The notes under the pieces: model-generated | What the model was told of the DNA's origin: nothing | Database searches by the model: none | The model's input: only the letters and a program-made list of their open reading frames with translations | Translations under genes and position numbers: made by a program | Assembly (NCBI GenBank): GCA_035308905.1 | Contig: DATGFS010000024.1 | Span: 1 to 64,000 of the forward strand | From: a bacterium | Lineage (GTDB): Bacteria > Sysuimicrobiota > Sysuimicrobiia > Sysuimicrobiales > Segetimicrobiaceae | Length of the DNA: 64,000 bases | Reading direction: 5' to 3' | In this document: positions 2,505-18,942 of the stretch, in pieces | Numbering within the stretch: position 1 is the first letter of the stretch | Layout: every line of letters starts with the position of its first letter

Positions 2505-3973
2505 TGCCGGGCGAGCGCGGCCGTCGCGAGCGCGCCGAGCGTTCGCAGACCGCGTTCGATCCGCGCGTGCCAGTTATGCCCGCAGCTCAGTCGCAGGCAG
2601 TTGGCGTACCGGCCGCCGGCCGAGAACACGTCCCCGGGCGCGAAGCAGATGCCCTTGGCGAGCGCGGCGTCGAACAGCTCACGACTGCGGAGCGGCTTCG
2701 GCAGCTCCAGCCACAGGACGAAGCCGCCGGCGGGCCGCGAGACCCTCGTCCCGGCGGGAAACGCCTGGTCGATGATCCGCAGCATATGATCGATGTTGTT
2801 GGCAAACGTCCGCCGCACGCGGCGCAGATGACGGTCGTACCCGCCCGACGAGAGAAACTCCGCCAGCGCCAGCTGCGGCAGCGCCGGCCCGCAGAGCGTG
2901 AACCCGAGTTTGCGCTCCAAGATTTTCTGCATGTGGCGCCCCGCGGCGATCCAGCCGACGCGGTATCCCGGCGCGAGGGTCTTCGAAAACGAACTGCAGT
3001 ACAGGATGTTGCCGGACGGCCGGAGCGCCATGAACGGCCTGGGACGCTCCTCGCCGAAGAAGATGTCGCCGTAGATGTCGTCCTCGATCAGCGGCAGCCC
3101 GTGTTTCGCCAGCAGGTCGAGGACCGCCGCCTTCTTCGCGTCCGTCATCGTGCAGCCGAGCGGGTTGTTGAAGCTCGACGCGAAGAGGCAGGCCGCGATC
3201 GCCCCGCGCTCGAGCGCGTCCCGCAGCGCCGGGACCTCGACGCCCGTCGCCGGGTCCGTCGGGAGCTCGAATGCCCGGAGATCGAGCGCCTCGATGATCT
3301 GGAGGAGGCCGAAGTACGTCGGCGACTCGATCCCGATCGCGTCGCCCGGCTTGGCGACGGCCTTCAGCGCGAGCGCCAGCGCTTCGGTGCAGCCGCAGGT
3401 GATGGCGATGTCCTCGGGCGAGAGCGCCTGGCCCCAGCGCAGCGCGCGGCGGCCGATTTCCCGGCGCAGCCGCGGGTCGCCCTTCGGCACCGTGTACGTG
3501 TTGCAGTCGACGCCCTTCGTCCGCGCCGCCCGGGCCAGGAAGCGGTCGAGCCGCGCCGACGCCAGCAACTCGGCACTCGGGATGGCGCACCCAAGCGGCA
3601 CCAGCTTCGGGTCCGCGGCGTGTTCCAGCAGCTTCAGCACGACGCCGGACACCGCGACACTCGCGGCCTTGGCCGGCGGTTTGGAGGCCGTCGGCAGCTG
3701 ACGCGATACCGGCTGCCCCGTGGCGACGTAGAAGCCGGACTGCGGCCGCGCCTCGAGCACGCCGCGGTCCTCCAGCAGGCGGTACGCCTGCAGCGCGGTG
3801 GACAGGCTGGTCTCGCGCTGCCGGCTGATCTCGCGCAGCGACGGCACCCGGGAGCCCGGCGCAAGCGTGCCGCCGGCGACGAGACCGGCGATGAAGCCGG
3901 CGAGCTGCTCGTAGCGGCAGAGCGGCTTCTCGCGCACGCGCGCCCTCCCGGGCCGTGGAACTGTTATGGCCAC
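2501..3973 (-). CDS. MocR-type transcriptional regulator (GntR helix-turn-helix fused to PLP aminotransferase domain)
   Basis: 490-residue regulator. Residues about 20-85 form a GntR winged helix (YEQLAGFIAGLVAGG, GSRVPSLREISRQRETS), and the remainder is a fold-type I aminotransferase domain with the PLP lysine in SSFSKTLAPGYRVGW. Such MocR proteins sense PLP or an amino compound and often control a nearby aminotransferase or transporter gene. The start codon is GTG. It diverges from the PhzF gene, and the AT-rich intergenic stretch carries repeated CTGTTAT elements that could be its operator. The ornithine cyclodeaminase-like gene nearby is a possible target, by inference only. Confidence 0.88.
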   Translation of the reverse strand: MAITVPRPGRARVREKPLCRYEQLAGFIAGLVAGGTLAPGSRVPSLREISRQRETSLSTALQAYRLLEDRGVLEARPQSGFYVATGQPVSRQLPTASKPPAKAASVAVSGVVLKLLEHAADPKLVPLGCAIPSAELLASARLDRFLARAARTKGVDCNTYTVPKGDPRLRREIGRRALRWGQALSPEDIAITCGCTEALALALKAVAKPGDAIGIESPTYFGLLQIIEALDLRAFELPTDPATGVEVPALRDALERGAIAACLFASSFNNPLGCTMTDAKKAAVLDLLAKHGLPLIEDDIYGDIFFGEERPRPFMALRPSGNILYCSSFSKTLAPGYRVGWIAAGRHMQKILERKLGFTLCGPALPQLALAEFLSSGGYDRHLRRVRRTFANNIDHMLRIIDQAFPAGTRVSRPAGGFVLWLELPKPLRSRELFDAALAKGICFAPGDVFSAGGRYANCLRLSCGHNWHARIERGLRTLGALATAALARH

Positions 3974-3998
3974 AACTTCAGTAATCTGTATCTGTTAT
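3961..3998. promoter_or_regulatory. repeated CTGTTAT elements, candidate MocR operator
   Basis: The AT-rich gap between the MocR gene and the PhzF unit contains CTGTTAT at 3961-3967, CTGTAT at 3986-3991 and CTGTTAT again at 3992-3998. The outer copies are 31 bases apart, about three helical turns. Known MocR regulators bind direct repeats next to their own gene, so autoregulation is plausible. The first copy overlaps the start region of the MocR gene. No binding data can be inferred. Confidence 0.35.
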
Positions 3999-4054
3999 CC
4001 TCGCGCCGCGCGCGCTAGAATCGCGGTGCGGGGACGTGCGAACGGAGGTGCGGC

Positions 4055-4174
4055 GTGCCCTACCAGGCGATATGTCAAACTGCTGCTGATCGAGCCGCGC
4101 GGCGTCCGGAATACCTGGCACGAGGGCGGCGAACGGACGGCGCCCAACGATGTCTGGATTTGACACGGCGATGA
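4055..4174 (+). CDS. possible 39-codon leader peptide upstream of the PhzF gene
   Basis: A GTG-initiated frame of 39 codons with a strong ribosome binding site (GGAGGTG, 4044-4050) and a TGA at 4172-4174 that overlaps an ATG of the PhzF gene in an ATGA. The product is basic and arginine-rich and resembles nothing I recognise. The good initiation signal and exact overlap suggest translational coupling, but in GC-rich DNA a frame this short can arise by chance. Confidence 0.3.
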   Translation: MPYQAICQTAADRAARRPEYLARGRRTDGAQRCLDLTRR

Positions 4175-5025
4175 GCCGGCGCCGCTTCCAGCAGGTCGAC
4201 GTGTTCACGACGACGCCTTACGCTGGGAACCCCGTGGCCGTGGTGCTCGATGGCGAGGGCGTGACGCAGGAGCAGATGGCGCGGTTCACCCGATGGACGA
4301 ATCTGTCGGAGGCGACGTTCGTCCTGCCGCCGGCCCGGCCCGAGGCCGACTACCGGGTGCGCATTTTCGCGCCGCTCGGCGCGCGCGGCGCCGCGGCCGC
4401 CGAGCTTCCGTTTGCCGGACATCCGACGCTCGGGACGTGCCACGCCTGGCTCGCGGCCGGAGGCACGCCGAAGCAGAAGGACGTGGTCGTGCAGGAATGT
4501 CCCGCCGGCCTGGTGAGGATCCGCCGGGGCGCAGACCGCCTGGCCTTCGCCGCTCCGCCGGTCATTCGAAGCGGACCCGTCGACGAGGATCTCGTCCGGC
4601 GCGTCGCGTCGATGCTGCGCGTCGACCGGGCCGGCATCGTCGAAGCCGCGTGGTGCGACAACGGTCCGGGATGGGTCGCGGTGTTTCTCCCGACCGCCGA
4701 CGCGGTGCTGGCGCTCGAGCCGGGGACGGTCGATATGCCCGTCGGGGTCGTCGGTCCCTATCCGAACGGTGCTCCGGCGGCGTTCGAGGTGCGGGCCTTC
4801 TTTCCGAAGCAGGGCGCCACCGCCGAAGATCCGGTGACCGGCAGCCTCAACGCGTCGCTGGCGCCGTGGCTGCTCGACAGCGGCCGGGCGCGGTCGCCGT
4901 ACGTGGCGAGTCAGGGCACGGCGTTGGGCTGCAGCGGGCGCGTCCACGTCGAGCGCGACAGCGAGGGGACGATCTGGGTCGGCGGCGGCACGATCACGTG
5001 CGTGAGCGGCCACGCGAACGTGTAA
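4171..5025 (+). CDS. PhzF family isomerase-like protein
   Basis: 284-residue PhzF/diaminopimelate epimerase-fold protein. The N-terminus (FQQVDVFTTTPYAGNPVAVV), the catalytic glutamate in TNLSEATFV (Glu47), the phosphate/substrate loop ELPFAGHPTLGTCHAWL and the second-domain EDPVTGSLNASLAPWL are all intact. PhzF itself isomerises trans-2,3-dihydro-3-hydroxyanthranilate, but most relatives have unknown substrates and no phenazine genes are seen here. Start at 4171 was chosen from homology and from the ATGA overlap with the short upstream frame; an in-frame ATG at 4150 would add seven residues. Confidence 0.88.
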   Translation: MSRRRFQQVDVFTTTPYAGNPVAVVLDGEGVTQEQMARFTRWTNLSEATFVLPPARPEADYRVRIFAPLGARGAAAAELPFAGHPTLGTCHAWLAAGGTPKQKDVVVQECPAGLVRIRRGADRLAFAAPPVIRSGPVDEDLVRRVASMLRVDRAGIVEAAWCDNGPGWVAVFLPTADAVLALEPGTVDMPVGVVGPYPNGAPAAFEVRAFFPKQGATAEDPVTGSLNASLAPWLLDSGRARSPYVASQGTALGCSGRVHVERDSEGTIWVGGGTITCVSGHANV

Positions 5026-12235: not shown

Positions 12236-12478
12236 CTAGTCGGGGGACAACCCAAGCAATGCCGCGAGGCGCTTTCGATCGAACCCGACAACCACCTCGC
12301 CGTCGACGACCGTCACGGGCGTGGTGGCAAGGCCCAGTCGTTCGAGCTCGGCCATCGCCGCCGGATCCTCGGCGACGTCGCGGGCCAAGTACGGAACGCC
12401 GTGTTGGGTGAGGAACTCCTCGACCCTGCGACAGAAAATTCAGCCCGGTTGGTTGAAAACCGTCACTGACTTGGCCAC
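12236..12478 (-). CDS. glutaredoxin-like selenoprotein with UxxC active site
   Basis: 80-codon glutaredoxin/NrdH-type protein interrupted by an in-frame TGA at codon 13 (12440-12442). The frame reads VTVFNQPG, then TGA, then IFCRRVEEFL, so the UGA stands exactly where the first cysteine of the CxxC redox site belongs. The rest is a complete glutaredoxin: cis-proline motif ATTPVTVVDG (Pro54) and EVVVGFDRKRLAALLGL. A hairpin with bacterial SECIS geometry starts 14 bases after the UGA. Start is GTG at 12478 with AAGGAGG six bases before; stop is TAG. It lies 17 bases behind the ArsR gene. Without selenocysteine insertion only 12 residues would be made. A nonsense mutation is the alternative, but the position and intact downstream frame argue for Sec13. 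Confidence 0.85.
12406..12426 (-). promoter_or_regulatory. bacterial SECIS-like hairpin
   Basis: Downstream of the UGA (12440-12442) the minus strand folds into GGGT, a bulged C, GAGG, the loop AGTT, then CCTC and ACCC: eight perfect base pairs with one bulged base. The loop contains GU, and 23 bases separate the UGA from the loop G. Both agree with bacterial SECIS elements that bind SelB, such as that of E. coli fdhF, although the bulged base is C rather than the U of E. coli. The hairpin is inside the coding region, as expected for bacteria. Confidence 0.7.
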
Positions 12479-12495
12479 AATGCGCCTCCTTGCGC

Positions 12496-12858
12496 TCAAA
12501 TCCAGTCGGGGCCGATTCGCCGGCAGCGGGCGAGGTAACCGCACCGCTCCGCTGAGAGGTCCTTCGCGAGGCCGATGAGACGTTCCACGCGCTCGTCCGC
12601 CAGCCGGTATGCAACGTGCCGTCCGCGCCGCCGTGCCGCGACAAACCGGCACCACTTCAAGCAGGCCAGGTGATTGGACAGCCGGCTCCGCGGCGCGCAC
12701 ATGATCGCGGCCAGGTCGGCGACCGTCCGCTCCCCGTCACGCAAAATCTCCAGCACGCGAAGCCGCGTGGGATCTCCGAGCACTCGAAAGTATCGCGCCC
12801 GGGCCGCGAGCGCCGGGCCCGGCGCACAGGCCTCCTGATGCCTGACGGCCGACCTCAT
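12496..12858 (-). CDS. ArsR/SmtB family metal sensor (CmtR-like)
   Basis: 120-residue winged-helix repressor. RYFRVLGDPTRLRVLEIL and the recognition helix with SRLSNHLACLKWC are typical of ArsR/SmtB. The cysteine pair in the recognition helix (Cys66-x3-Cys70) plus a C-terminal Cys106 reproduces the C-x3-C plus distal Cys pattern of the mycobacterial Cd/Pb sensor CmtR; Cys11, Cys54 and Cys112 are extra. A soft, thiol-loving metal such as Cd, Pb or Hg is the likely signal. The gene has no ribosome binding site and its promoter places the transcript start at the ATG. It heads the unit with the selenoglutaredoxin and diverges from the MerB-like gene. Confidence 0.88.
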   Translation of the reverse strand: MRSAVRHQEACAPGPALAARARYFRVLGDPTRLRVLEILRDGERTVADLAAIMCAPRSRLSNHLACLKWCRFVAARRRGRHVAYRLADERVERLIGLAKDLSAERCGYLARCRRIGPDWI

Positions 12859-12861
12859 GGC

Positions 12862-12891
12862 TTGACTTATAACAGGTTTTCCTGTTAGCGT
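12862..12891 (+). promoter_or_regulatory. candidate promoter of the MerB-like gene
   Basis: On the plus strand TTGACT (12862-12867) could serve as -35 and TAGCGT (12886-12891) as a weak -10 with an 18-base spacer. The -35 overlaps the -10 of the divergent arsR promoter, and the palindrome lies between the two elements. Confidence 0.4.
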
Positions 12892-12894: not shown

Positions 12895-12925
12895 ACGCAC
12901 CGGACTGCCGCGGGAGGCGATGGCT

Positions 12926-13525
12926 GTGACGGATCGAGAGAGCCGGGTGCGGACCGCAATCCTGAGGCGCGCGCTCCTCGGCCGGGACACGGCCGGTCCC
13001 GCGCTTGCGGAAGCCGCGGGACTCTCCCCCGCGGATGTGAGCGCCGCGTTGACCGCGCTGCACGATGCCGGGGCCGTTTATCTCCGCGACGGGGCCGTGA
13101 TGGCCGCATATCCGTTCTCGCTCGTACCGACCGAGCATCGCGTCGCGCTCGGCGGCGTAACCGTCTACGCCAACTGCGCCGTCGATGCGCTGGCGGTGCC
13201 GCCGATGGCGGATGGTGAGGCGCAGATCACGTCGGAATGCGGCCACTGTCGCGGGCCGATCGTCGTGTTGATGCGGGGACCCCGCATTCTCGGGTCAGAA
13301 CCGGCCGCGCCGGTGGTCTTTTACCCGGCGAAGGAGTGCTGTCTTCCCGGACCCGCGGTACTGACGCATTGTCCGCACATTCAATTCTTTTGCGGCGAAG
13401 ACCATGCCGCGCGCTGGCAGCAGACGCACCTGGAACACTGGGGCACCGTCTTCGATCTTGCCGGGGCGGCGGAGTACGCGCACCGGCACTTCGCCGGCGT
13501 CATCGACATCCTGCGCCCGCGGTAG
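12926..13525 (+). CDS. MerB-like organometallic (alkylmercury) lyase
   Basis: 199-residue protein of the alkylmercury lyase family, which cleaves carbon-mercury bonds and releases Hg2+. An N-terminal winged-helix-like domain (residues about 5-65) precedes the catalytic part. VYANCAVDAL gives Cys84 and Asp87, matching MerB Cys96/Asp99; Cys105 matches MerB Cys117; HCPHIQFF gives Cys149, matching Cys159. Four further cysteines (108, 138, 139, 156) are extra, including adjacent Cys138-Cys139. GTG at 12926 is chosen because GGAGG lies eight bases upstream; the ATG at 12920 is too close to it. No merA, merT or merP is nearby; instead a selenoglutaredoxin and CmtR-like sensor face it. A substrate other than organomercury is possible. 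Confidence 0.85.
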   Translation: MTDRESRVRTAILRRALLGRDTAGPALAEAAGLSPADVSAALTALHDAGAVYLRDGAVMAAYPFSLVPTEHRVALGGVTVYANCAVDALAVPPMADGEAQITSECGHCRGPIVVLMRGPRILGSEPAAPVVFYPAKECCLPGPAVLTHCPHIQFFCGEDHAARWQQTHLEHWGTVFDLAGAAEYAHRHFAGVIDILRPR

Positions 13526-14450
13526 GCTCGCTCGCCGAGACACACAGATCTTGGAGCAGCGCCGCGGCGTCCGCGGCGCGATCGGCCCAGAAGCCCGCCG
13601 CGGCCCCCATGACACCGCCGTGGGCGGCGTGACGCACCGAGCACGCCCGCGCTTCGGTCCCCAGCCAGCCGAGTACGGCCTCGGGCGCCTGCGACAGCAG
13701 CGCGGCGAGCGCGAACTTACGCTCCCCCACTCGGAGGCCGAGTTCGAGCTCCCGCGCCGCCCGTCCGAGATCGGCGCGCGTGAGAATCATGCCACAGCGC
13801 ACGGGCGCCAAGAGACCGGTGATGAATGCCTGCGATCCTTCCCGGCGCGGATCCGGAAGCGGCGGCGCGTCACGCAGGTGCGCCGGCATTGGAGCGGGGC
13901 CCGAGCCGGAGGGCGCGGCGTCGCGGGCAGTCTCCTCGGCGAGTGCCGCGCGAAGCAGACCGGCCCACGCGCGGTACGCCGGCGGAGCCATGGCCTCGAC
14001 TCGATCGAGGTAAGGCGGCAGCCACGAGACGAGATGCTCGTGACGCAGCGCCGAGCGGGCCTGCCGCCACAAGAGGCGCCGCGCCTCGTCCCGCTCCTCC
14101 GCCTCCCGGTCAATAAGTCCCGCATACAGCCCGAGGAGGGCCGCGAGGTGATCGGGCTCCGCCGGCGGGGCGAGGCGCAGGGCCCGCCAGAAGCCGGCGA
14201 CCCGGTCGCGCGCCTCACCGCCCAGCATGCCCTCCGCGCCCAGGTAGACCGAGGCGTAGGGATAGAGATGCAGCACGAAGAGATCCGTGAACTGGGAGGC
14301 ATCGGGAACACCCGGGAGCCCGAGCGCCTCCCACACCCGCGCGTGGCCGTCGTCCGGCGGCTCGCAGAGGACGCCGAGCGCCCGGAAGATTTCGGGGGAC
14401 GACGCTTCGCTCGGAGCGCGCGTCGAGAGATTCATCGCCGGTTGGCTCAC
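13500..14450 (-). CDS. TorD-family molybdoenzyme chaperone
   Basis: 316-residue cytoplasmic chaperone that helps insert the molybdenum cofactor into its partner enzyme. The all-helical TorD/DmsD signature is seen in LYPYASVYLGAEGMLGGEA, VAGFWRALRLAPPAEPDHL and LLGLYAGLIDRE. It is longer than the usual 200-220 residues, with a C-terminal extension of unknown role. The GTG at 14450 overlaps the stop of the catalytic subunit gene in a GTGA; an in-frame ATG at 14435 is an alternative. Its last 26 bases overlap the end of the convergent MerB-like gene. Adjacent position assigns it to the molybdoenzyme upstream. Confidence 0.85.
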   Translation of the reverse strand: MSQPAMNLSTRAPSEASSPEIFRALGVLCEPPDDGHARVWEALGLPGVPDASQFTDLFVLHLYPYASVYLGAEGMLGGEARDRVAGFWRALRLAPPAEPDHLAALLGLYAGLIDREAEERDEARRLLWRQARSALRHEHLVSWLPPYLDRVEAMAPPAYRAWAGLLRAALAEETARDAAPSGSGPAPMPAHLRDAPPLPDPRREGSQAFITGLLAPVRCGMILTRADLGRAARELELGLRVGERKFALAALLSQAPEAVLGWLGTEARACSVRHAAHGGVMGAAAGFWADRAADAAALLQDLCVSASEPTAGAGCR

Positions 14451-17395
14451 ACGCCCGCGCGCACGGGCTCTCCTGCCGGCGGCGTGCCGGCCGGCAGCCG
14501 GTACGCCTCCCGCGTCGGGCGGAGGGGGCGCATCAGCCAGTAGGGACGCCGGGTCCCGTCCGGCGAGTGGCGGTCCGCCGGCCGGGTCAGCGCCAGCCAC
14601 TCGCGGAAGACCGCCGCGGACTTCTGCGTGTCGACGGCGATGTCGCCGTACCGGTCCTCCGGCCCGGCGGGCCGCACGCGCACGGCCTGGTGCCAGCAGT
14701 GCTGGCCGGAGATCGGATCGGGATGCACCGGAAACGTCAGGTTCTGGTGGACGCCGACGTCGGTCCACCAGATCCGCAGCGTGTCGCGGTCCGACGACGC
14801 GTACGGTCCGGTCCCCGCGCGGCGGCGCATCGTCCAGCGGCTGCCTCCGCCGTCGCCCGCGGCGCGGTCGAGCGCCACGGTCGCCATCAGCTGCCGCTGG
14901 CCGTGGTCGTGGATCTTCCACCGCCCCATGTGGTGGCTGCACGCGACGACGCCGGGCCGGATGCCTTCCGTGACCCAGGCCTTCACGACGAAATAGCCGA
15001 TCTCAGTCTCGACGCGCACGAGCCCGCCGGTCGCGACGCCGATTCGCGCCGCGTCGGACGGGTGGAGCCACAGCGGATTCGTATGCGCGATCTCATCCAG
15101 CCATTTCGCGTTGGCGCTGCGCGTGTGGATCTGCACCGGCAGCCGGAACGTCGAGATGAGCGGCATCTGGTCCGGGGCGAGGCGCTCCGGATGCACGTGG
15201 CTGCGCGGGTACGCCGGCAGCGCGAGCTCGGGCCAGCCCCACCGCGACATCGTCGGCGAGTAGAACTCGAGGCGTCCCGACGGTGTGGGGAATCCGCGCC
15301 GCACCACCCCGTCGATCTCGACGCCGACCGCGCGCCGGCCGTCCGCGTCGGGATCCGGCATGCCCTGCGGCACCACGTTCGGATTTGGGGGAGCGGACGC
15401 GCGCGTGTACGCGCGGCCGAACCGGTCGACGCGCACGTCGTCGAGCTCGGAAGCGGGGACGGGCCGATCGTACAGCGGGCCGAGGCCGCGGGCGATCTCG
15501 AAGGCGCCGTACCGCCGCATATACTCGAGCGGCGTGCAGCCCTCGGCCGCCGCGCGCTCGGGCAGGCCCGGTACCGAGTGCTCGAAGATGTACGCGTAGT
15601 ACTCGTCGATTCCGAGCTTCTCGCCGGGGTGCTTCTGCGATTCGAAGTACTTTCGGATGCCGAGTGCCCCGTCGGGATCGACGCGCCAGGACAGCTCGAT
15701 CCAGAACTCGTTCTCCTCCCAGACCTCGCCGGGGTTGACCTGGCGGGTGTCGGTGACGCGCTCGCCGAGGCGCTCGCGCGCCGCGCGCAGCACCGGCTGG
15801 CGGAAGCCGACCCACTGACCGTCGTACTGCTCGTAAGAGTGCAGGTCGTGGCGCTCCGAGGCATGCCCCATCGGCAGAATGTAGTCGGCGAAGTACGCGG
15901 TCTCGTTCCAGGTCGGCGTGAGCGCGACGTGCAGGCCGATGAGGCGCTCGTCGGTGAGCGCCTCGATCCATGAGAAGCCGTCGGGGTTGGTCCACACGGG
16001 ATTGTAGACGCGGGTGAAGTAGACTTGAAGCTTCCCGCGGCCCTCGCGCAGCAGATGCGGCAGCAGGAACGACATCTCGTTGACCGCGAGCGGATACTCG
16101 CGCGGCCAGGTTAGCTCGTTCCAGGCCTTCGGGTGGGACGGGACGTAGATCGGCTTCGGCACGAACTTGTTCCAGGCGTTGGGGTAGGTGCCGCCCGGGG
16201 TCGCGATCGCGCCGAGCAGCGCGTTGAGGAGAAAGAGCGTGCGCGCCACCTGCCAGCCGCCGAGATTGCCCGCGGCCGCGCTCCGCCAGGTATGGGTGGA
16301 CAGGCGCGTCCCGGCGTCGGCGACGACGTCCGCGATCTCGCGCAGCGTCCCCGCGGCCACCCCCGACTCCCCTTCCGCGAACTCGAAGGTGTACCGCGCG
16401 TAGACCGTGCCGAGGATCTCCTCGAAAGTCTCGAACGTCTGCGGCCGGTCCGGGTGCTCGGCGGCGAGGTACTCGCGCCAGTTCCACCAGCGCCGCACGA
16501 ACTCGCGGTCGTACCGCCGCCCGGCGATGAGGTGGTGGGCGATCGCGAGCAGGATCGCCGGCTCCGAGCCGGGCCGCGGGGCGACCCAGTAGTCCGCGTG
16601 CGTCGCCGTGTTGGAGAGACGCGTATCCATCACGATGAGCCGGGCGCCGGCGTGCTTGCCCTCGATCACGCGCTGCGCGTGCGGGTTGAAGTAGTGGCCG
16701 GACTCGAGGTGGCTGCTGATCAGGAGGATGACACGGGCGCTGGCGTGGTCGGGGCTCGGCCGGTCGAGGCCGAGCCAGTAGTGGTAGCCGGTCCGCCCGC
16801 CGCTCGAGCAGATGTTGGTGTGGGTGTTGTGGCCGTCCACACCCCACGCAGCGAGCACCCGCTCCGTAAAGCCGTCTTCGCCGGGCCGCCCGACGTGGTA
16901 CATGACCTCGTTGTGGCGGCCGGAGGCGATCGCGCCTCGGATGCGCGACGCGATGTCGTCGAGCGCCTCGTCCCAGGAGACGCGCACCCAGGCGCCTTCG
17001 CCCCGCGCGCCCGCGCGCTTGAGGGGGTGGAGAATGCGGTCCGGGTCGGTGATCTGATTGAGCGTGGCCGGGCCCTTCGCGCAGTTGCGCCCCCGCGAGC
17101 CCGGGTGCTCCGGGTTGCCCTCGAACTTGCGGACCTGGAACGTCTCGCGGTCGACGTACGCGAGGAGACCGCAGGCGGATTCGCAGTTGAAGCACGTCGT
17201 CGGCACGAGCATGTACCGTTTCTCGACCCGGCGCGGCCACGCATGCGTGTCCAGCTCGACCCAGTCGTCCCAGCGTTCCTTCGGCGGAAACGCCGCGAGG
17301 TGGACGCGGCTCGGCCCCGGATAGAACGTCTCACCGCGCGCGGCGGCGGCTTCACGCGCCGCGCTGACGCGGCGGCCGAGATCGTCCAATTTCAT
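14447..17395 (-). CDS. Mo-bisPGD oxidoreductase catalytic subunit (DMSO reductase family)
   Basis: 982-residue catalytic subunit. A [4Fe-4S] cluster is bound by Cys68, Cys71, Cys75 and Cys105 (TTCFNCESACGLL, GRNCAKG), with the electron-relay lysine after the last cysteine. Cys196 in HTNICSSGGRTGYHYWLG is the probable molybdenum ligand; the C-terminal MGDG-binding domain begins near TRSANAKWLDEIAHTNPLW. The family includes polysulfide, tetrathionate, arsenate and sulfite-oxidising enzymes; I cannot name the substrate. No Tat signal is present, so it probably works on the cytoplasmic side, as SoeA-type enzymes do. ATGA overlap joins it to the electron-transfer subunit, and GTGA to TorD. Confidence 0.88.
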   Translation of the reverse strand: MKLDDLGRRVSAAREAAAARGETFYPGPSRVHLAAFPPKERWDDWVELDTHAWPRRVEKRYMLVPTTCFNCESACGLLAYVDRETFQVRKFEGNPEHPGSRGRNCAKGPATLNQITDPDRILHPLKRAGARGEGAWVRVSWDEALDDIASRIRGAIASGRHNEVMYHVGRPGEDGFTERVLAAWGVDGHNTHTNICSSGGRTGYHYWLGLDRPSPDHASARVILLISSHLESGHYFNPHAQRVIEGKHAGARLIVMDTRLSNTATHADYWVAPRPGSEPAILLAIAHHLIAGRRYDREFVRRWWNWREYLAAEHPDRPQTFETFEEILGTVYARYTFEFAEGESGVAAGTLREIADVVADAGTRLSTHTWRSAAAGNLGGWQVARTLFLLNALLGAIATPGGTYPNAWNKFVPKPIYVPSHPKAWNELTWPREYPLAVNEMSFLLPHLLREGRGKLQVYFTRVYNPVWTNPDGFSWIEALTDERLIGLHVALTPTWNETAYFADYILPMGHASERHDLHSYEQYDGQWVGFRQPVLRAARERLGERVTDTRQVNPGEVWEENEFWIELSWRVDPDGALGIRKYFESQKHPGEKLGIDEYYAYIFEHSVPGLPERAAAEGCTPLEYMRRYGAFEIARGLGPLYDRPVPASELDDVRVDRFGRAYTRASAPPNPNVVPQGMPDPDADGRRAVGVEIDGVVRRGFPTPSGRLEFYSPTMSRWGWPELALPAYPRSHVHPERLAPDQMPLISTFRLPVQIHTRSANAKWLDEIAHTNPLWLHPSDAARIGVATGGLVRVETEIGYFVVKAWVTEGIRPGVVACSHHMGRWKIHDHGQRQLMATVALDRAAGDGGGSRWTMRRRAGTGPYASSDRDTLRIWWTDVGVHQNLTFPVHPDPISGQHCWHQAVRVRPAGPEDRYGDIAVDTQKSAAVFREWLALTRPADRHSPDGTRRPYWLMRPLRPTREAYRLPAGTPPAGEPVRAGV

Positions 17396-18942
17396 GCGAG
17401 CGGCACCGCCTGTCCCGCCTGGACGTAGGCGTGATCGTACGCGAGCAGCCCTGCCAGCGACAGCACCGCGGCGAGGGCGCCCGTCGCGAGCGCGGACGTC
17501 CCGCCTGTCACCGCGACCACGGCGGCCGCGACGACGCCGAGGACCGTCAGCGCGATCCCGGTCGAGAACACCCGGCGGAACCGGCCACCGGTCAACTCGT
17601 GCACCGCCAGGCGCGCGTGCGCGGTTTCCTGCCGGCCGGCTCGCGGCCCGCCGGCCTCCACCCACACGAACGCGAGGTGCGTGAGCCCGGCGCCGGCAAG
17701 GGTCACCGCGAGCGGCCGGATCACCGTGGGGTCGAGCCAGCCGGCGCACGGCAGGAGCGCCGCCGCGCCGGCCAGGAGCGCCTGGAGCGCCAGGTGCGGC
17801 GCGAGCCACGGGCTCTCCCACAGATCGCGGGCGCGCGCCTGCGCGAACAGATATGCGGTGTAGGCGGCGGTCAGCACGGCAGCGACCAGTCCCGGCAGCG
17901 CGAGCCCGCCCTGAAGCGCGGACCATCCCGCGGCGCCGGCAACGAGATGGAGCGCCAGCACCAATCCGTATGCCGCGATCAGAAACGCGCCGCGCACGAG
18001 CCAGCTCTTCCACTGCGGCCGCGTGAAGATCAGATAGAACCGCTCCGGATGCTTGAGGTCGGCGACGAGCAGCACGCCGGTGACGGCCAGGAACACCGCG
18101 GCGAGTGCGGGCGCCCCCCACCGCCAGAGCGCGCTCGTGCCGCGCAGCAGGCCCGCGCCGAGGAGCAGCACCGCGATCAAGTACGCGCCCGCCGCGACGC
18201 TTTTCGTCCAGGTGTAGAGGCTCACGCGCCAGCCCCACGGCGCCTGGTGCGGCAGATCGTAACTGAGCAGCGCCGCGGCCTGGGACGAGGCCCACCCGTC
18301 CGGCGCGCCCGACGTCACGCCGCCGTTCCCGTTGCCCTGCTCGCTCCACATGAAGAGTCCGCCGTCCGGACGCCGCGCCGCCAGCGGATCGAGCGTCGCG
18401 TCGCCGGCTCCCTTGTAGTAGAGCTTGGGCAGCGTCCGCTTCTCCGGCTTGCGCACGCGAACGGGATCTCCGTGCACGATCTGCGCCACTTTGGAGGCCG
18501 GATCCTCGACGTCGCCGACCAGGATCGCCTCGGTCGGGCACACGACGACGCACGCGGGCTCGAGGCCGACGTCGAGGCGGTGCGCGCAGAAGTTGCACTT
18601 CTCCGCGGCGTGGTCGTCGGGGTTGATGAAGATCGCGTCGTAGGGACACGCCGCGATGCAGGCCTTGCACCCGATGCAGATCGACTTGTCGAAGTCGACG
18701 ATGCCGTCCGGCCGCCGGTACATCGCGGACGTCGGACACGGCGAGACGCACGGCGCGTCGTCGCACTGGTTGCAGCGCGTGACCTGGAAGGCGCGCCGGG
18801 CGTCCGGAAAGACGCCCACGTCGACGTATTTGACGTAGGTGCGGGTGACACCGAGGGGAACGTCGTTCTCGGACTTACACGCGGTCGTGCAGGCGTGACA
18901 CCCGATGCACCGGGTGTGATCGATGACCTTGGCCCACTTCAC
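17392..18942 (-). CDS. fused four-cluster ferredoxin / NrfD-type quinone subunit
   Basis: 516-residue fusion of two subunits normally encoded separately (PsrB/DmsB and PsrC/NrfD). Residues 10-140 carry four [4Fe-4S] cysteine groups: Cys12/15/18/22, 57/60/65/69, 89/92/95/99 and 116/119/131/135. After a linker, eight hydrophobic helices from about residue 240 form an NrfD-like quinol-binding module with the hallmark DLKHPERFYLIFTRPQWKSW. It would pass electrons between the membrane quinone pool and the molybdenum subunit. The start codon is GTG. First gene of the three-gene operon with the catalytic subunit and TorD. Confidence 0.88.
   Translation of the reverse strand: MKWAKVIDHTRCIGCHACTTACKSENDVPLGVTRTYVKYVDVGVFPDARRAFQVTRCNQCDDAPCVSPCPTSAMYRRPDGIVDFDKSICIGCKACIAACPYDAIFINPDDHAAEKCNFCAHRLDVGLEPACVVVCPTEAILVGDVEDPASKVAQIVHGDPVRVRKPEKRTLPKLYYKGAGDATLDPLAARRPDGGLFMWSEQGNGNGGVTSGAPDGWASSQAAALLSYDLPHQAPWGWRVSLYTWTKSVAAGAYLIAVLLLGAGLLRGTSALWRWGAPALAAVFLAVTGVLLVADLKHPERFYLIFTRPQWKSWLVRGAFLIAAYGLVLALHLVAGAAGWSALQGGLALPGLVAAVLTAAYTAYLFAQARARDLWESPWLAPHLALQALLAGAAALLPCAGWLDPTVIRPLAVTLAGAGLTHLAFVWVEAGGPRAGRQETAHARLAVHELTGGRFRRVFSTGIALTVLGVVAAAVVAVTGGTSALATGALAAVLSLAGLLAYDHAYVQAGQAVPLA

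Follow-up and report, generated by a model that had tools for sequence, protein, structure and literature searches.

Does the TGA that interrupts a small redoxin-like frame in this genome encode selenocysteine (Sec), and what might a selenoprotein redoxin be doing beside a gene for organomercurial lyase? The frame lies in the first 64,000 nt of contig DATGFS010000024.1 (assembly GCA_035308905.1, phylum Sysuimicrobiota), the stretch that we refer to as the window.

A redoxin frame with one in-frame TGA

The grx gene (12236-12478, minus strand) has 80 codons, running from a GTG start at 12478 to a TAG stop that ends at 12236. A Shine-Dalgarno sequence, AAGGAGG (12485-12491, minus strand), can be read directly 6 nt ahead of the GTG. 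The single internal TGA (12440-12442, minus strand) is codon 13 and provides the first residue of a UxxC active site in the context PG-U-IFC. With TGA translated as U, the product is VAKSVTVFNQPGUIFCRRVEEFLTQHGVPYLARDVAEDPAAMAELERLGLATTPVTVVDGEVVVGFDRKRLAALLGLSPD*, in which the TTPV and GF.....LLGL segments are intact. This read-through translation matches the Pfam Glutaredoxin model PF00462 at 55.3 bits (E 7.8e-15, gathering score 22.9), and both features of the glutaredoxin superfamily, the active-site motif (UxxC) and the cis-Pro (TTPV), are present. The initial annotation described a glutaredoxin frame interrupted solely by TGA. Its coordinates are exact, and the ribosome binding site, GTG start, TAG stop, PG-U-IFC and downstream motifs can all be re-read in the sequence; the strand, which it left unstated, is minus. 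It also expected gene finders to overlook the gene, and the table-11 ORF list indeed has no ORF of at least 80 aa encoding the protein, only an upstream ORF terminating at the grx TGA. The gene escapes ordinary gene finding because just 12 codons stand before the UGA.

The PF00462 match upholds the description as glutaredoxin-like, with the refinement that the protein is nearer to YruB/NrdH-type redoxins than to glutathione-dependent glutaredoxins. Its best NCBIfam matches are YruB (65 bits), UXX-star (52.3 bits) and, third, NrdH (47.2 bits), all under their cut-offs. Among solved structures the best match is 7C10 (named "Glutaredoxin", E 2.5e-14), followed by two thioredoxin-named chains and then NrdH redoxins; the Sec-glutaredoxin of Clostridium oremlandii, 4TR0, is a far weaker match (25 bits, E 1.6e-4). 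Glutaredoxins of the Grx1/Grx3 type bind glutathione (GSH) through a Gly-Gly-x-Asp motif. The Grx3 form of this motif, which follows the cis-Pro strand, is absent from grx, where VVGFDRKRL stands instead, and the Grx3 model scores 25.4 bits for a cut-off of 90. Given the missing motif, re-reduction by a thioredoxin-reductase-like enzyme seems likelier than by GSH.

Decoding of the UGA codon

The window's assembly (4.0 Mb, 97% complete) encodes selA, selB, selC and selD. The selA gene (547 bits) has selB adjacent on the same contig, C33, and selC, the tRNA-Sec gene with anticodon TCA, is about 2 kb from them. The selD gene (389 bits) carries an in-frame TGA of its own; Sec-containing SelD proteins are known. 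At the position of the Sec13 codon, 41 homologous Sec loci have TGA and a further 32 homologues have a codon for Cys, and the translated loci have no random stops or frameshifts at this column. The same-codon TGA occurs in homologues 79-83% identical to grx in two genomes of the same genus and 48-60% identical across the order, and more distant homologues carry Cys. A search of 43 genomes of the phylum finds a grx homologue in 18, nearly all copies having TGA at this codon (a paralogue in G032 has Cys), and a search of 386 genomes adds further Sec members in several other families together with many Cys members. Beyond the UGA, dN/dS is 0.10-0.25 within the genus and 0.08-0.33 for other pairs, which indicates purifying selection. 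The Sec members are strongly clustered: 4 changes suffice to place the Sec label on a 73-sequence tree, compared with 24 when labels are shuffled. The tree is built on 78 columns, and finer resolution is beyond their reach. For 4 of the 18 phylum genomes with grx, selA is below cut-off or absent; three of these are MAGs 68-77% complete and one, G018, reaches 93% completeness over about 320 contigs. With several MAGs incomplete, a strict link between Sec-grx and selA within the phylum is not demonstrable.

A SECIS-like hairpin, GGGU[C]GAGG-AGUU-CCUC-ACCC with a bulged C (12406-12426, minus strand), begins 13 nt after the UGA codon. Sec members have such a hairpin about 16-20 nt past the UGA, with compensatory changes and synonymous-codon constraint. 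The order-type hairpin is exemplified by GGUGAAGG-AGUU-CCUUCACC, and that of other families by GCGAAAGA-GUU-UCUUUCGC; where the protein reads MEYLS in place of KEFLS, the hairpin is GCGAUGGA-GUA-UCUAUCGC. In a few Sec members (L041 and L156, for instance) the minimum-energy fold of the segment differs from the hairpin. We compared fold stability with that of synonymous shuffles that keep the protein sequence fixed and draw on each locus's own codon use, repeating an earlier version with pooled usage. The mean z is -1.89 for Sec loci (n=41) and -0.12 for Cys loci (n=32; Mann-Whitney p=9.5e-7). The hairpin of the window on its own is no more than mildly stable, with z -0.83 (about -1), and is not significant by shuffling; significance is reached in the set only. 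A single register does not fit all Sec loci, since the helix register slips one base from lineage to lineage: the pairs sum to column 55 in alignment A2 and to column 56 in A3. Because of this slip, the RNAalifold consensus is weak on A2. In one register group, 95.5% of cells are paired with 13 double-sided changes, compared with shuffled means of 86% and 2.7, and sliding the partners by 1-3 bases lowers pairing to 68% or less. In the other register group, 81.6% are paired compared with 75.6%. Codon choice shows the same constraint. The third base of Leu23 lies in the stem, and this codon is CTT or CTC in 25/25 Sec members and CTG in 0/25, while CTG makes up 76/142 of the other Leu codons of the same genes (p=5e-8); the third base tracks its stem partner in 24/25. 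Related sequences are not independent, so all these p-values overstate the case. The compensatory changes between families would be hard to explain otherwise than by a conserved hairpin.

The machinery, the TGA conserved among homologues and the hairpin conserved 3' of it all agree with the initial prediction of a selenoprotein, and on this comparative evidence grx is almost certainly a selenoprotein gene with Sec at UGA-13. SelB and tRNA-Sec, guided by the downstream hairpin, would insert the residue. We consider it very improbable that the UGA is decoded as another amino acid, such as Trp, or is simply read through: the column holds Cys rather than Trp in homologues, UGA serves as the grx terminator in several relatives, tRNA-Sec and SelA/B/D are present, and we find no point in favor of this reading. 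That the UGA is a real stop, in a pseudogene, through a sequencing error or after a 12-residue leader, is scarcely credible, as nothing beyond the bare presence of a stop codon speaks for it, against an identical TGA in dozens of genomes from separate assemblies, purifying selection beyond the TGA, hairpin covariation and the Sec machinery in the genome. Pseudogene, sequencing error and UGA-as-Trp are thus candidates that we reject on conservation, selection and machinery.

Mercury genes around the redoxin

Upstream of grx by 17 nt lies arsR (12496-12858, minus strand), an ArsR/SmtB metalloregulator that scores over the cut-off of the NCBIfam HTH_metalloreg model. It is CmtR-like: its best PDB match is 2jsc (Rv1994c, the CmtR of M. 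tuberculosis, E 9.5e-15), and its HLACLKWC aligns with HLSCLRGC of CmtR, keeping Cys-x3-Cys. Divergent from arsR-grx is merB, for organomercurial lyase (12920-13525, plus strand; 99 bits with Pfam MerB, and matches to MerB structures in the PDB). Its start is 61 bp from arsR, and between the two there is a perfect operator-like palindrome, TAACAGG-TTTT-CCTGTTA (12870-12887, no strand). The exact palindrome also adjoins arsR in G009 and G005, both with merB in the locus, and G001 has a degenerate copy. C86, D89 and C151, the Cys/Asp/Cys catalytic residues of MerB, are invariant in the four MerB sequences aligned (window and three relatives). No merA scores over the cut-off in the window's 97% complete assembly (best 341.6 vs 454.45 bits). 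We rejected the VOC/glyoxalase gene downstream of grx (about 12177-11668, minus strand) as a partner, since the relatives searched have no homologue of it beside grx. Further upstream on the same strand (14447-18942, minus) is a large gene, molybdopterin-oxidoreductase-like by sequence, with iron-sulfur and membrane-subunit-like sequence; its frames are open and have no internal TGA.

This mercury neighborhood, which the initial annotation missed, recurs in relatives. All three genomes of the genus have merB adjoining grx, in two arrangements. In G002, merB is followed by grx on one strand. G001 carries two partial loci: in the first, arsR-merB is intact and grx truncated, and in the second, grx is intact and merB broken. 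These G001 loci (L068 and L067/L142) are complementary half-broken copies, the broken merB being joined to a MerR-like piece. Outside the genus, Ca. Methylomirabilis (L061) has arsR-merB-grx with merT-like and merF-like genes after it, a Rokuibacteriota contig (L062) has merA-merE-grx, G139 has merE-grx-merT with merA further down, and G179 has grx-Zn ribbon-merF-merT/HMA-merE. In G385 and G115, grx stands between an upstream merF and a downstream MerT-like gene, and G385 has the order arsR-merF-Zn ribbon-grx.

To count linkage, we require a mer homologue within 3 kb, with MerA counted only at 38% identity or more. By this measure 13/42 Sec loci and 0/29 Cys loci have mer genes (Fisher p=0.0005); L085 and L163 are one place counted twice, which corrects the Sec count to 12/41. 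Sec and Cys loci partly differ in lineage, so the test is not phylogenetically independent, and we regard the contrast as supportive rather than decisive. MerA-like matches of 22-27% identity near some Cys-Grx genes are left uncounted as probably generic flavoprotein disulfide reductases.

A small zinc-ribbon protein directly adjoins Sec-grx in two mer clusters (L147, about 4560-4880, plus strand; L152, about 4650-4960, minus strand), its gene preceding Sec-grx in one and following it in the other. The L152 mer cluster, headed by Sec-grx, also has a MerT-HMA fusion (about 2900-4200, minus strand) reading GMTUPFTUP, in which two in-frame TGA take the place of the Cys of the Pfam HMA metal site. 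In three genomes we observe a MerA/dihydrolipoamide-dehydrogenase-like flavoprotein with an in-frame TGA at its first redox-active Cys, GGTUxNVGCIPTK (L075:7018-8262, minus; L140:4148-5509, minus; L141:4844-6193, plus); the one in L075 lies just upstream of Sec-grx on the same strand.

Possible roles and relation to known systems

It is quite possible that grx is a genuine Sec-redoxin with a general role, supplying electrons to peroxiredoxin, MsrA, ribonucleotide reductase or thiols under metal stress, and that mer loci are one of several contexts that recruit it. Within 3 kb of about 70% of Sec loci there is no mer gene, and the neighbors that grx has in other genera are a copper-type set (CsoR, CopA, CopZ) or TlpA/CcdA, so mercury may be one use among several. 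The C. oremlandii enzyme, a characterised Sec-Grx, serves Sec-MsrA, going by the title of a reference in PMC13188914. Against a purely general role, mer linkage recurs with varied gene orders in several families and is absent from the 29 Cys-homologue loci. In L078 (1294-4364) and L080 (7211-10361), a CsoR-like regulator, a CopA-type P-ATPase and a CopZ-like gene, named from sequence, are divergent from Sec-grx; with such neighbors in two genomes, the redoxin may serve other soft metals.

On balance we favor, with some reserve, a selenoprotein redoxin with a role in mercury detoxification as the explanation of the whole; the mercury role is inferred from gene context. The product would be a redoxin of the NrdH/YruB type with a thioredoxin fold and a Sec-x-x-Cys site. 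Gene order, the gap of 17 nt and the conservation of the palindrome suggest that grx and merB are co-regulated by the ArsR-type sensor acting on the shared palindrome. Co-transcription of grx with arsR and induction by metal are presumed. The selenol would probably attack Hg(II)-thiolate or disulfide bonds that remain after organomercurial cleavage, and take Hg(II) from MerB or free mercury-blocked thiols. Cys16, at +3, would resolve the intermediate, and the redoxin could then be re-reduced by a thioredoxin-reductase-like flavoprotein or, if a MerA/MerT-type partner is present, hand Hg(II) to it. The initial annotation had proposed a low-pKa, metal-binding redox site at Sec13; both properties stay conjectural here, and the mercury neighborhood gives the metal-binding proposal a concrete direction.

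Christakis, Barkay and Boyd treat as an open question how MerB keeps working in roughly 900 merB+ genomes without merA, and note that what becomes of Hg(II) in organisms with MerB only is not known (PMC8261052). A MerA-like enzyme of Synechocystis depends on glutaredoxin, according to work cited there. Encoded with merB, the Sec-redoxin is a natural candidate for a role of this kind, and its position beside merB where no clear merA is present makes it a concrete candidate for bacteria of this type. The stronger proposal, that it belongs to mer loci as a part dedicated to mercury handling and in MerB+/MerA- bacteria takes Hg(II) from MerB or regenerates blocked thiols, doing part of the usual work of MerA, is tentative, and we think it rather doubtful in this full form. 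Selenium's very high affinity for mercury is usually treated as one basis of mercury toxicity. The loci described here suggest that bacteria have put a selenol redoxin into mercury loci, selenium perhaps aiding mercury handling. In the literature searched we find no description of a Sec-redoxin as part of a mer locus; the UXX-star (PMC12013261) and organometallic-selenoprotein (PMC9879109) papers lie outside that search.

Sec-glutaredoxins are already known as a kind, and 63 predicted selenoproteins are reported for a Methylomirabilota MAG (PMC13188914). Like the C. oremlandii Sec-Grx (PDB 4TR0/4TR1; PF00462, UxxC), the protein is small and of glutaredoxin fold, with Sec replacing the first Cys of the active site and a Cys at +3 as the resolving residue; unlike it, the protein has merB as its neighbor where the reported partner there is Sec-MsrA, and the two sequences are distant. 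With the YruB (TIGR02196) and NrdH (TIGR02194) redoxins it shares length and a VxGFxxxxL-type C-terminal motif, but it falls under the curated cut-offs (65 vs 88.55 and 47.2 vs 85.75) and has Sec in place of Cys. The UXX-star families (NF041212, NF041211, NF041114 and NF047338) are likewise glutaredoxin-like selenoproteins, for which metal binding is presumed (PMC13188914); grx differs in having a resolving Cys (UxxC) and scores 52.3 vs 66 for the nearest of them, further below for the others. Repressors of the ArsR type are known for mer operons, for example in Streptomyces lividans and Sulfolobus (PMC3466566). The locus resembles mer operons with ArsR-type regulators and MerB in its arsR, merB and operator-like palindrome, to which relatives add merA, merE, merT and merF; it differs from known mer operons in that the window's genome has no merA over the cut-off, and in the Sec-redoxin inside the cluster.
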